From Candidatus Omnitrophota bacterium (GTDB taxonomy: Bacteria > Omnitrophota > Gorgyraeia > Gygaellales > Profunditerraquicolaceae): a stretch of 40,031 bases of DNA. This document shows positions 4,326 to 13,946 of the stretch, in pieces; position 1 is the first letter of the stretch, and each line of letters starts with the position of its first letter. The translations under genes were made by a program, and so were the position numbers. Where the stretch lies: contig JAQUPI010000011.1 of NCBI GenBank assembly GCA_028716705.1, forward strand, positions 1-40,031, read 5' to 3'. The notes beneath the pieces were generated by a model. That model saw only the letters and a list, made by a program, of their open reading frames with translations. It was not told the origin of the DNA and made no database searches.

Positions 4326-5837
4326 TTAGATGTCAAAATAAAGGTAAAACTCATAGGGATGCGGCCGCATTCTTACCGGGTCTATCTCCCTCTTACGTTT
4401 AAATTCCAGCCAGACATCGATGACGTCCTTGGTAAATACGCCTCCTTTTAAAAGATACTCATGGTCCGCTTCCAAGGCGTCTATGGAGCGGCGCAGCGAA
4501 GAAGGAACTGTGGCTACCTTGGACAGCTCTTCCTCGCTAAGGTCAAACAGGTCCACGTCAACGGGTTTTCCCGGATCGATCTTGTTTTGTATGCCATCGA
4601 GGCCAGCCATCAGCATCGCGGAAAAAGCGATGTAGCCGTTACATGCCGGGTCAGGCGGACGGAATTCTATCCTCTTCGATTTCGGGCTGTCGGAATACAT
4701 CGGTATCCTTACCGCGGCGGAACGGTTACGCGCTGAATAAACCAGATTCACCGGAGCCTCATATCCGGGGACAAGCCTTTTATATGAATTTGTGGTCGGA
4801 GCGCAGAACGCCATTAAGCTGTTGGCATGTTTTAAAAGCCCCCCGATGTAGTATTTGGCGGCCTGGGAAAGGAGCGCGTAACCGTTCTTGTCATAAAAAA
4901 GGTTTGCCCCTTTCTTCCAAAGGCTTTGATGGCAATGCATGCCTGAGCCGTTATCCGCAAAAAGCGGTTTCGGCATGAAAGTCGCCACCATCCCCGCTTT
5001 CTTAGCCATATTCTTGATGATGTACTTGTACAAAAGCAAGTTATCACCCATTTTGGTCAGCGTATCGAACTTCATGTCGATCTCGCATTGCCCCGCGGTG
5101 GCAACTTCATGGTGGTGCACTTCCGCGTTAATGCCCGACTCTTTCATTTTGAGGATCATCCTGCTCCTCAGGTCCTGTATTGAGTCATGCGGCGGTACAG
5201 GAAAGTAGCCTTCCTTAAAACGTATTTTATATCCCAGATTAGGATGCTCATCGCGGCCTGTGTTCCAATCCGCCTCGTCTGAATCGATAAAATAGTAACC
5301 GGAATTTTCAGTCTGGTCAAAACGGATACTGTTAAAGATAAAGAACTCGGCTTCCGGCCCGAAATAAACGTTATCCGCGATACCGGAATCTTTCAGGTAT
5401 TTCTCCGCTTTTTTGGCTATGTAGCGCGGGTCGCGGGTATAGGGCTTGCGGGTCAACGGGTCATAAATATCACAGATCAAACTTAAAGTAGGCACCTCGC
5501 AAACCGGGTCGGCTATGGCCGTAGATGGGTCCGGGATCAGGATCATATCCGACTCCTGGATCTTCTGAAACCCTCTTATGGAGGAGCCGTCAAAACCGAT
5601 ACCGTCCACCCAAATCGATCTGGTAATATCGTCCATCTCCAGCAATTCCGAGGCGGGAATGGAAAAATGCTGCCAGAGTCCGGGAAGGTCATTGAATTTC
5701 AGATCAACGATCTGGATACCCTTCTCCTTGACCATCTTCAGCACATCCCGGGCTGCCGTTTCGTCAAATGAGCCGTTCACAAGGGGATTCTTCGTTTTCA
5801 CCTCAGACGCCGTTTTGGTCTTTTGCCTTTTAGCCAT
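4326..5837 (-). CDS. glnA: Glutamine synthetase type I, 503 aa
   Basis: [46 protein letters not shown] and NRSAAVRIP motifs of GSI. Confidence 0.97.
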
Positions 5838-5896
5838 TTTTTTCTCCTAGGTTTAGCACCAAACATATAGGATGGTTTGGTGTGCCCGTACTGGGC

Positions 5897-5943
5897 AAAA
5901 AAAAGCGTTCACGCCGGTCAACTTCCTTGACCTACATGAACGC
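5897..5943 (-). terminator. Attenuator terminator in glnA leader
   Basis: RNA sense GCGTTCA TGTAGGTCAAGGAAGTTGACCGGCG TGAACGC TTTTTTTT; inner stem GGTCAA/TTGACC. Confidence 0.85.
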
Positions 5944-5989
5944 CAGTGTTCAAATTCTTAAATATGCCTGTTTTTACACTACGATGTGC
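5937..5989 (-). promoter_or_regulatory. Candidate ANTAR dual-hexaloop element upstream of glnA
   Basis: P1 GCAC[ATCGTA]GTGT (5989-5976) and P2 TGAAC[ACTGGC]GTTCA (5952-5937). Both hexaloops have A1 and G4; the P2 3' arm is the terminator 5' arm. Confidence 0.7.
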
Positions 5990-6001
5990 CTAAATTTTAA
6001 G

Positions 6002-6042
6002 CCTTACACATATACAAGTAAAAATACCGCGCTTTTGGTAAC
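6002..6042 (-). promoter_or_regulatory. Conserved upstream box of glnA leader (shared with 8911-8951)
   Basis: GTTACCAAAAGCGCGGTATTTTTACTTGTATATGTGTAAGG, followed by possible -10 TAAAAT. Confidence 0.6.
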
Positions 6043-6064
6043 ATCTTTTTGACAAAATTCGCCA

Positions 6065-6406
6065 TTATCCAATCGCTATCCCCCCGCGCTCTTCAGTGCG
6101 GATACGCACGCACTCTTTTAGGTCCAGGATAAAGATCTTCCCATCCCCGGTTTGGCCGGTCTTCGCGCCTTTTACGATCGCTTTTATGGTCGGCTCGACA
6201 AAGTTATCGTTGACCGCTATCTCCAGGCGCACCTTTCTTAGAAGGTTACCATTTTCTTTTGCTCCGCGGTAAACCTCGGTTACGCCCATCTGCCTGCCAT
6301 GACCCAGGACTTCGTTTACGGTGATCAGGTTTATATCGGCTTTGTACAATTCTTCCTTCACTTCTTCCAGTTTATAAGGCTGGATTATGGCAATGATCAA
6401 TTTCAT
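6065..6406 (-). CDS. glnB: PII nitrogen regulatory protein (canonical length, no Tyr at T-loop position 51)
   Basis: [66 protein letters not shown]. Confidence 0.95.
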
Positions 6407-6458
6407 CGATCCTCCCTGCCCAAAAAGGGCGCGCCGGCCAATCCGATATGGCCGGGTG

Positions 6459-7691
6459 TTATTCTAAGACCGTATAGGCCCTTTCATGATGCTGCGTCAG
6501 ATCCAGCCCGATCACTTCATCTTTTTCATTCACGCGCACACCGATGATCATATCCACGAGCTTATAGATCATCACGCTTAGCGCTAGCGAATAAATTAAT
6601 GTTACGGCGACAACTAACAATTGCACCAGGAATTGCCCGGGGTTACCGAAGAAAAGCCCATCCGCGCCTGCCGGATTCACCGCCTTAGAAGCAAAAAGCC
6701 CGGTGGCCAACGCCCCCCATATGCCTCCGACACAATGTACGCCAAAGGCGTCCAGGGAATCATCGTAACCGAATTTTGGCTTAATAATACTGACGGCGGT
6801 AAAACAGAAAACGCTTACCAGCAGGCCGATGATGATCGCGGGAATAACGCTGACATAGCCTGCCGCGGGCGTGATCGCGACCAGGCCCGCTACGGCCCCT
6901 GACGCCACCCCGAATATCGTGGGCTTGCCGTTACGCATCCACTCAATCACCGCCCAGCTTAACCCCGCTGCCGCCGCCGCGGTGTTCGTCACTACGAAAG
7001 CATTCACCGCTATGCTATTGGCGGCCAAGGCGCTCCCCGCGTTAAAACCAAACCAGCCGAACCATAAGAGCCCGGTCCCTAAGACCACGAAAGGCATGTT
7101 GTGCGGAGCCGGAACGCTCTTTTTCATATTCTTTCTTTTCCCTATAAACAGTGCCGTGGCTAACGCGGCTATGCCGGCGTTGACATGCACGACCGTCCCT
7201 CCCGCGAAATCAAGCGCCCCTAATCTTCTCAACCATCCGCCGGAGCCCCAAACCCAGTGGCAGACAGGGTCATATACAAACGTCACCCAAATAATTATAA
7301 AAGCGATAAACGCCGAAAATTTCATCCTTTCGGCAAACGCCCCGAGGATCAAAGCGGGGGTGATGATCGCGAACATCATCTGGAAGGCCATAAATGCCTG
7401 GTGCGGTATTGTCCCGGCGTAATCCGCATACGGCTCCATGCCTACCCCGTTTAAACCGAACCATTTAAGTCCTCCCCAAAAACCTTCGGAGGGGGCAAAA
7501 GAAAGGCTGTATCCGTAAAGCACCCACTGCACGCTTAAGACGCACAGGATAATAAAACATTGCATCAATATGCTTAAAATGTTCTTCTTTCTAACCATCC
7601 CTCCGTAGAAAAAAGCCAACCCCGGAGTCATCAGCATCACCAGGGCCGATGAGATCAAAACCCAGGCCGTATCTCCAGCATTAATCATCAC
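6459..7691 (-). CDS. amt: Ammonium transporter
   Basis: [64 protein letters not shown]. Confidence 0.98.
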
Positions 7692-12351: not shown

Positions 12352-12418
12352 AAAAACAAAAAAGCGTTCCTTAAAGAACGCTTCTTTGCTTCCTTGAAAC
12401 ACGAACCTTGTGTTTCAA
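12352..12418 (-). promoter_or_regulatory. ANTAR-gene leader, site 1: P1, P2 hexaloop and terminator
   Basis: P1 TTGAAACAC[AAGGTTC]GTGTTTCAA; P2 AAGGAAGC[AAAGAA]GC(G)TTCTTT; terminator AAGCGTTC TTTAAG GAACGCTT TTTTGTTTTT. Confidence 0.7.
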
Positions 12419-12422
12419 ATAA

Positions 12423-12450
12423 AGTATAACGTTAAATCAATTTTTGTCAA
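12423..12450 (-). promoter_or_regulatory. Sigma-70 promoter of the GAF-ANTAR gene
   Basis: TTGACA-N16-TATACT. Confidence 0.8.
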
Positions 12451-12460
12451 GTTTTTTTAT

Positions 12461-13798
12461 TTAAACTAGCCCATGGTCGATCATCGCGTCTGCGACTTTT
12501 ACAAAACCAGCGACGTTGGCTCCGGTTACGTAATCCACGTGCTTGTTTTCTTTTCCGTACCTTACACACTGTTCGTGGATAGCCACCATGATCTCGTTAA
12601 GTTTTTTATCTACTTCTTCGCGCGACCAGGACAGGCGCATACTGTTCTGTGACATCTCCAAACCGGAAGTCGCGACCCCGCCGGCGTTGGATGCCTTGCC
12701 CGGAGCGTAAAGGATCTTTGCCTTCTGGAATACCTCTACGCCCTCGGGAGTAGTAGGCATATTCGCGCCTTCTCCGACCGCGATACAGCCGTTCTTAAGC
12801 AATGTCTTCGCATCGCTTTCGTTTATCTCATTTTGCGTAGCGCTCGGAAAAGCTATATCGCATTTTACATCCCAGGGTTTTTTGTTATCAAAATATTTGC
12901 AGCTGAATTCCTTCGCGCAATCTTTAATGCGGCCCCGGCGTACGTTCTTTAAATCCATCACGCATTTTAATTCTTTATGGTCGATACCGGCTTCGTCGTA
13001 AATGAAACCGTTGGAATCTGAGAGTGTCACTACCTTCGCCCCTAACTGGATAAGCTTCTCTACCGTATACTGAGCCACGTTCCCGGCTCCGGATACCGCG
13101 CAGACTTTGCCTTTCAGGGATTCCCCCCTTGTTTTAAGCATTTCTTGGACGAAATAAACGCAGCCATAACCGGTGGCTTCCGGCCGTATCAGGCTGCCTC
13201 CCCAGTTTAAGCCCTTACCGGTGAGGACTCCCGTAAATTCATTGCGCAGCCTTTTGTATTGCCCGAACATATATCCGATCTCGCGGCCGCCCACACCTAT
13301 ATCTCCAGCGGGTACATCCGTGTTGGCGCCGATATGCTTTGATAGCTCTGTCATGAAACTCTGGCAAAACCTCATGACTTCATTGTCCGATTTGCCCTTA
13401 GGGTCAAAATCCGAACCGCCTTTTCCTCCTCCCATGGGAAGGGTGGTCAAGCTGTTTTTAAATACCTGCTCAAAGGCCAGAAACTTCAAAATACTCAAAT
13501 TTACGCTCGGGTGAAAACGGATCCCGCCTTTATAAGGACCTATGGCGCTGTTCATTTCTATGCGGTAGCCTTTGTTTATCTGGATCTCTCCCTGATCATC
13601 CAGCCAGGGGACGCGGAACATGATCGTCCTTTCAGGCTCAACCATTCTTTCCAGGATCTTGTTTTCCTGATATCTGGGATTTTTTTCGATAAAGGGCATC
13701 ACTGACTCGGCTACTTCCCTCACCGCCTGGTGGAATTCGGGCTCGCCCGGGTTTTTCGCCGTCACTTTCTCCATGAATTCTTCGATCCTCTTTGACAC
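12461..13798 (-). CDS. gdhA: NADP-type glutamate dehydrogenase
   Basis: [59 protein letters not shown]..; GGAGGAG SD suggests GTG start at 13798 (track start 13819). Confidence 0.96.
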
Positions 13799-13860
13799 GC
13801 CTCCTCCTTTTTTGATCATGTCTTTGTCATTTTTTGCCTAAAATACAGGCAACATCCGTG

Positions 13861-13906
13861 AAAATAAAAATAGCGCCCCCCCCTAAGGAGGACGCCTTTG
13901 TCTCTC
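13861..13906 (-). promoter_or_regulatory. gdhA leader: hexaloop overlapping a GC-rich terminator-like hairpin
   Basis: GAG(A)GAC[AAAGGC]GTCCTC; GCGTCCTCC TTA GGGGGGGGCGC TATTTTTATTTT. Confidence 0.6.
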
Positions 13907-13918
13907 TATTATTGAACA

Positions 13919-13946
13919 ATTATAGCATTCAAACAAAAGTTGTCAA
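13919..13946 (-). promoter_or_regulatory. Sigma-70 promoter of gdhA
   Basis: TTGACA-N16-TATAAT. Confidence 0.85.

Follow-up and report, generated by a model that had tools for sequence, protein, structure and literature searches.

The leaders in front of the nitrogen-assimilation genes of an uncultured Omnitrophota bacterium are predicted from their sequence, with a probability of roughly 0.9, to be transcription attenuators that respond to ANTAR proteins. They lie in a stretch of 40,031 nt (the window), which is contig C11 of a 1.87 Mb genome and whose minus strand carries the genes glnA, glnB1, amtB, a porin-like gene, glnB2, and those for an ECF-type sigma factor, an archaeal-type glutamate synthase, GAF-ANTAR protein 1 (ANTAR1) and glutamate dehydrogenase (gdhA). 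All window coordinates below refer to this strand, also for glnB2, which the initial annotation had described as divergent. In the leaders of glnA, glnB2, the sigma gene, ANTAR1 and gdhA, a mini-hairpin termed P2, with the consensus AC[ANNGRY]GU (loop in brackets), overlaps the 5' arm of a terminator, and by this overlap the two structures are mutually exclusive. EutV needs an A at loop position 1 (A1), a G at position 4 (G4) and AC/GU closing pairs, and a P2 that is held by the protein blocks the terminator (PMC3369931).

Folding against dinucleotide shuffles bears out the terminator-like hairpin that had been noted before each of the five genes: z lies between -3.7 and -7.1 in every leader, and 0/200 shuffles are equally stable. 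The P2 hairpins vary in quality, with good copies containing A1 and G4 before glnA, gdhA and, in three tandem copies, ANTAR1. The glnA copy, UGAAC[ACUGGC]GUUCA (5937..5952), overlaps the 5' arm of an intrinsic terminator at 5897..5943 (-25.9 kcal/mol, z -5.1), and the gdhA copy, GAG(A)GAC[AAAGGC]GUCCUC (13888..13906), stands at a terminator recovered by covariance model search and folding (13861..13895). Upstream of ANTAR1, a putative promoter, TTGACA-N16-TATACT (12423..12450), is followed by the terminators T1 (12352..12386, z -7.1), T2 (12267..12312) and T3 (12205..12250), which were recovered by the same two methods. The first P2 of this series, GAAGC[AAAGAA]GC(G)UUC (12376..12392), has a bulged stem; the second, GGAU[AAAGGC]GUCC (12306..12319), is kept as GGAU[ANNGAC]GUCC in L004, L016, L035 and L115; and the third, GAAC[AAUGGC]GUUC (12246..12259), overlaps its own terminator and is kept in relatives as AAC[AAUGGC]GUU. 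The sigma-gene hairpin, GGAC[UAAGGC]GUCC (9536..9549), opens its loop with U, a base shared by the sigma leaders of relatives (L034, L211), and is accompanied by a terminator-like hairpin with a weak U tract, found by folding (9502..9544). In the glnB2 leader P2 is degenerate: AAC[GAAGGC]GUC (8876..8887) has two pairs and G1, as weak as initially described, next to a terminator that is supported by folding and by the covariance model (8836..8881; 43.3 bits, E 1.1e-6). Unlike this copy, the orthologous porin/amtB leaders have good P2 hairpins. Every loop listed in the initial annotation for the five genes is present on the minus strand, while the third ANTAR1 copy and the hairpins upstream of P2 in the glnA and ANTAR1 leaders had been overlooked.

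These upstream partner hairpins, termed P1, occur in several forms. That of glnA, GCAC[AUCGUA]GUGU (5976..5989), has A1, G4 and AC/GU closing and is common to most leaders of glnA orthologues, in which CAC[ANNGUA]GUG precedes P2 with linkers of about 0 to 28 nt. ANTAR1 leaders have a recurring P1 with a seven-base loop, AC[ANNGUNN]GU, which in the window reads GAAACAC[AAGGUUC]GUGUUUC (12396..12416). A possible degenerate P1 of glnB2, CAC[UAAGAGA]GUG (8892..8904), with a 7-nt loop and U1, is weak and was recognised from sequence only. The paired motif comprises a P1 with a 6-nt loop in glnA and in pyrG (see below) and one with a 7-nt loop in ANTAR1; none was found in gdhA. In a gene-blind search, an A1/G4 hexaloop was found upstream of P2 in 38 of 93 leaders, compared with 6.2 +/- 2.0 in dinucleotide shuffles, and upstream hairpins of other loop lengths in only 10-13 of the same 93. 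Most gdhA leaders of the window's family have a -10 box about 10-20 nt from P2. In the window, the promoter inferred for gdhA, TTGACA-N16-TATAAT (13919..13946), lies 12 nt upstream of P2, and because its -10 box is so near, there is no room for a P1 if this predicted promoter is used. Other genomes show two further arrangements. Upstream of gltB in Deltaproteobacterial and Syntrophaceae relatives (L103, L108, L111), a compact dual hexaloop with a linker of 1-2 nt occurs, for example UCAAUAC[AAAGAG]GUAUUGA beside GAC[AAGGGC]GUC. In the ANTAR1 leaders L114 and L115, the apical loop of T2 is an A1/G4 heptaloop, UUAGC[AAAGUCU]GCUAA, some 20 nt upstream of the P2 that comes next; the tip of T2 looks as though it served as a P1 for the switch that follows.

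The hexaloops are conserved beyond this genome, contrary to the lack of conservation that the initial annotation had named as a refutation. Orthologues of ANTAR1, gdhA and glnA were collected from relatives, and the hairpin and terminator are kept in the orthologous gdhA, glnA, porin/amtB, sigma and ANTAR leaders. Where gdhA orthologues have a leader of their own and are not buried in an operon, 14/14 show, where the terminator begins to pair, a P2 that has A1, G4 and AC/GU closing. Among the mini-hairpins overlapping 660 terminators from the loci, six-base loops are commonest, numbering 91 where other lengths number 26-70; the A1/G4 class makes up 43 of the 91, and the next class counts 11. 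In an alignment of 49 leaders, which is biased as its members were picked for having both structures, the terminator arms covary at 0.600 compared with 0.325 when shuffled and at most 0.218 in slides; the terminator 5' arm also covaries with the 5' arm of P2 (0.397 vs 0.229), the pattern that a pair of mutually exclusive structures should produce. Because of this bias, a set of gdhA leaders picked by orthology was counted separately. Here the terminator covariation is 0.684 vs 0.363, reached by 0/500 shuffles, and A1, G4 and AC/GU closing are present in 13/13, while the covariation of P2 is modest, with 14/500 shuffles reaching it. For P2 the main support therefore comes from the invariance of its loop and closing pairs, from the enrichment of P1 across the phylum and from co-occurrence with ANTAR genes.

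R1, a covariance model that joins P2 to the terminator and follows a check proposed in the initial annotation, recovers the window leaders in their own genome and further elements in relatives. In a blind search of the whole genome, the significant R1 matches were glnB2, gdhA, glnA, sigma and the third ANTAR1 site, together with a single site outside the window, which precedes the CTP synthase gene pyrG (C25:24506-24563; L177). The pyrG leader has its own promoter, a P1, UUC[AAGGCA]GAA, and a P2, AAAC[AAGGGC]GUUU. The initial reading is supported, but its notion of a self-contained island circuit is too strong, given the element on another contig. Across 145 genomes of the phylum, an ANTAR gene is present in 106 and the element in 85, with the element occurring in 82 of the 106 ANTAR-positive and in 3 of the 39 ANTAR-negative genomes (Fisher p 1e-14). 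Shared ancestry confounds this comparison, but it also holds inside the family to which the window belongs, where 0/3 ANTAR-negative genomes and nearly all ANTAR-positive ones have the element. Of 85 proteins encoded behind matches, about 70 belong to nitrogen or glutamine genes; the 85 include 15 ammonium transporters, 8 proteins with a class II glutamine amidotransferase domain, 8 with a glutamate synthase domain, 8 GltA-like electron-transfer subunits, 7 GAF-ANTAR proteins, 6 glutamate dehydrogenases, 5 glutamine synthetases, 4 CTP synthases, and a few carbamoyl-phosphate synthases, NAD synthases, GMP synthases and amino acid permeases. The theme of the regulon is ammonium and glutamine.

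Two GAF-ANTAR proteins had been reported in the window; both are there, and they are the only ANTAR proteins found in the genome. The ANTAR domain (PF03861) is present with conserved RNA-contact residues. In the EutV structure, G4 is flipped so that it contacts E160, Y164 and R142, with M172 acting as a plug (PMC8934654). ANTAR1 (11482..12195), the probable effector, largely keeps the RNA-contact residues, being identical to EutV at R142, K143, E160, Y164, M172 and R175 and substituted at K147 (to R), N173 (to D) and R177 (to T); this mapping takes the chain index to exceed the published residue numbers by two, an assumption under which all nine published letters agree. Its start is probably the ATG at 12195 and not the listed TTG at 12243, because the latter falls within T3 and the part homologous to relatives starts deeper in the reading frame. 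Protein 2 (26983-27717) and its orthologues have a proline at the position of E160, a G4 contact, and protein 1 is therefore the better candidate in this genome; it also has an autoregulatory leader and the island location. That protein 2, which is encoded behind glnA2, is the effector, or that both proteins are needed, appears unlikely on these grounds, even though a protein of the second type is the only ANTAR in some relatives and one such genome (G008, with L030 as its sole ANTAR gene) has seven elements.

The mechanism that we propose would run as follows. By default, RNA polymerase would transcribe the leader, which would fold into the intrinsic terminator. A signal of nitrogen status would activate ANTAR1 via its GAF domain, the most likely signal being a shortage of glutamine that 2-oxoglutarate or PII would relay; the targets mix scavenging genes with glutamine-using enzymes, so that control may be of either sign. 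The ANTAR dimer would be recruited on P1, where P1 exists, and would then hold the P2 hexaloop AC[ANNGRY]GU. Since the 3' stem of P2 doubles as the terminator's 5' arm, a P2 held in this way would block termination. Readthrough would extend into glnA, glnB2-amtB-glnB1, the ECF sigma gene, ANTAR1-gltB and gdhA, and into pyrG elsewhere in the genome. With the ANTAR1 gene located behind three switches, the circuit would be expected to amplify itself.

Several observations weigh against this interpretation. The first loop base is U in the sigma leader and G in that of glnB2, where P2 is moreover nearly unpaired; these two leaders may be weak or constitutive. The gdhA leader is without P1, though the EutV system requires it, and the 23-nt linker between P1 and P2 of glnA exceeds the tolerance of EutV, while actinobacterial ANTAR RNAs accept 2-25 nt (PMC8164766). 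Furthermore, three genomes with R1 elements (G083, G090, G112) have no detected ANTAR gene; they are estimated to be 83-92% complete and are possibly incomplete metagenome-assembled genomes. If the hairpins were instead plain intrinsic terminators that end the upstream genes, AAAGGC loops would arise as a by-product of an A tract joined to a GC-rich terminator stem, and indeed terminators commonly take the symmetric form AAAGGCGTC...GACGCCTTT, and two window leaders score weakly on the opposite strand as well. Such an origin is nevertheless highly improbable, as the hairpins are separated from the upstream genes by putative promoters (TTGACA-TATAAT in gdhA, GTTACC-TACTTGTA in glnA and glnB2). 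Moreover, chance would not lead one to expect a paired P2 stem closed by AC/GU in every gdhA leader, the specificity for hexaloop length, or the association with ANTAR or nitrogen genes.

Equally slight is the probability that the leaders are attenuators of another kind, governed by a metabolite-sensing RNA or a different RNA-binding antiterminator, and share the hexaloop by coincidence. In favour of such a scheme, both the sensed signal and the binding of the protein are predictions. On the other side, A1/G4, AC/GU closing, P1 and the overlap with the terminator are exactly the determinants of ANTAR recognition, the element co-occurs with ANTAR genes, and a scan of the window against Rfam, with E up to 1, matched no family. 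We thus favour ANTAR-responsive attenuation for these leaders.

A further layer of control may reside in the ECF-type sigma factor (8957..9484), which matches the TIGR02937 sigma70-ECF profile over its full length (57.6 bits, curated cut-off 42.9), as do 14/14 orthologues. A candidate alternative-sigma promoter, GTTACC-N16-TACTTGTA, precedes glnA (6013..6042) and the glnB2-porin-amtB-glnB1 operon (8922..8951), and these are its only two copies in the genome. In related loci, the form GTTACC-N16-TACTTRTA has a spacing of exactly 16 in 60/60 distinct copies, though 10-24 was allowed, and P1 and P2 follow 42 of the 60. A homologue of the ECF sigma factor is encoded in 25 of the 29 genomes with this promoter, compared with 37 of 145 overall (p 4e-15), a co-occurrence which shared ancestry can also yield. 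A GTTACC promoter before the sigma gene itself was considered and rejected, since the GTTACC there is coding sequence (...EEVTESE stop) and is present in L034 too. The sigma factor and GTTACC-N16-TACTTRTA are candidates for a sigma factor dedicated to nitrogen genes and for the promoter that it recognises, and their co-occurrence suggests a feed-forward loop, with sigma acting on initiation and ANTAR on elongation. More tentatively, and at slightly less than even odds, the Omnitrophota would possess a two-layer nitrogen/glutamine circuit, in which the ECF sigma factor recognises GTTACC-N16-TACTTRTA, GAF-ANTAR antitermination gates the transcripts and the sigma gene is itself ANTAR-gated, making the loop coherent, while the gdhA, GltA-like and some gltB switches would work with only one hexaloop, located where the transcript starts, against the rule that both P1 and P2 are required.

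The mechanism as such is already known; what is described here is a predicted phylum-wide central nitrogen regulon. As in the control of eut by EutV in Enterococcus faecalis (Ramesh, 2012, PMC3369931; Walshe, 2022, PMC8934654), the elements combine an A1/G4 loop, AC/GU closing, in some leaders an upstream P1, and a P2 whose 3' arm is shared with the 5' arm of the terminator, and the RNA-contact residues of the protein are largely conserved. Unlike EutV, the regulator contains a GAF domain instead of a phosphoreceiver domain, central nitrogen genes are targeted, some leaders are without P1, linkers are longer, P1s with 7-nt loops occur and three tandem switches precede the regulator gene. ANTAR nitrogen regulons have been predicted computationally in Desulfotomaculum acetoxidans, D. 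reducens and Pelobacter carbinolicus (Ramesh, 2012; PMC3369931), likewise with elements before PII, ammonium transporter, glutamine/glutamate synthase or nitrogenase genes. They concern different phyla, and the available part of that report does not mention gdhA, pyrG, nadE, guaA or a coupled sigma gene and promoter. Similarly, in the NasR system of Klebsiella oxytoca and in NasS-NasT an ANTAR protein relieves termination in the leaders of genes for nitrogen assimilation, but these systems sense nitrate, act on single operons and use other sensor domains. The actinobacterial ANTAR RNAs, which a covariance model identified, likewise pair two A1/G4 stem-loops, with linkers of 2-25 nt, though in another phylum and with other targets (PMC8164766), and the present elements were collected via their overlap with a terminator. 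Departures from the described systems are the promoter-proximal leaders without P1, the heptaloop P1s, the tandem triple switch and the coupled sigma promoter.

Our literature search found no report of ANTAR antitermination, nor of the control of nitrogen assimilation, in Omnitrophota. The leaders would provide a concrete answer for this phylum, namely RNA-level antitermination over ammonium uptake and the synthesis of glutamine and glutamate, with predicted control extending to glutamine-using enzymes (pyrG, carAB, nadE, guaA) and a regulator under its own control. Those leaders that lack P1 additionally bear on the question of the minimal target, which the EutV structure redefined as one hexaloop while P1 is still essential in vivo (PMC8934654). 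The sigma/promoter pair, if true, would add a second layer of control that we have not found described for ANTAR regulons in the literature.

The remaining features of the locus complete this picture. Behind their leaders lie glnA (4326..5837, PF00120), the operon of glnB2, the porin-like gene, amtB and glnB1 (6065..8817), and gdhA (12461..13819). The archaeal-type glutamate synthase gene (9746..11422) starts 60 nt after ANTAR1, and the two are probably co-transcribed. Further along, glnA2 is followed by the gene for GAF-ANTAR protein 2 (26983..29058); this pair is located inside an operon, and an ANTAR element looked for in front of it was not found. The protein encoded at 7706-8500, between glnB2 and amtB, is without a Pfam family. 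In relatives, secreted proteins resembling it (FATPSTHIWSPSTDIQ) are encoded behind ANTAR switches and beside amtB, and it is perhaps an ammonium-related outer-membrane protein.

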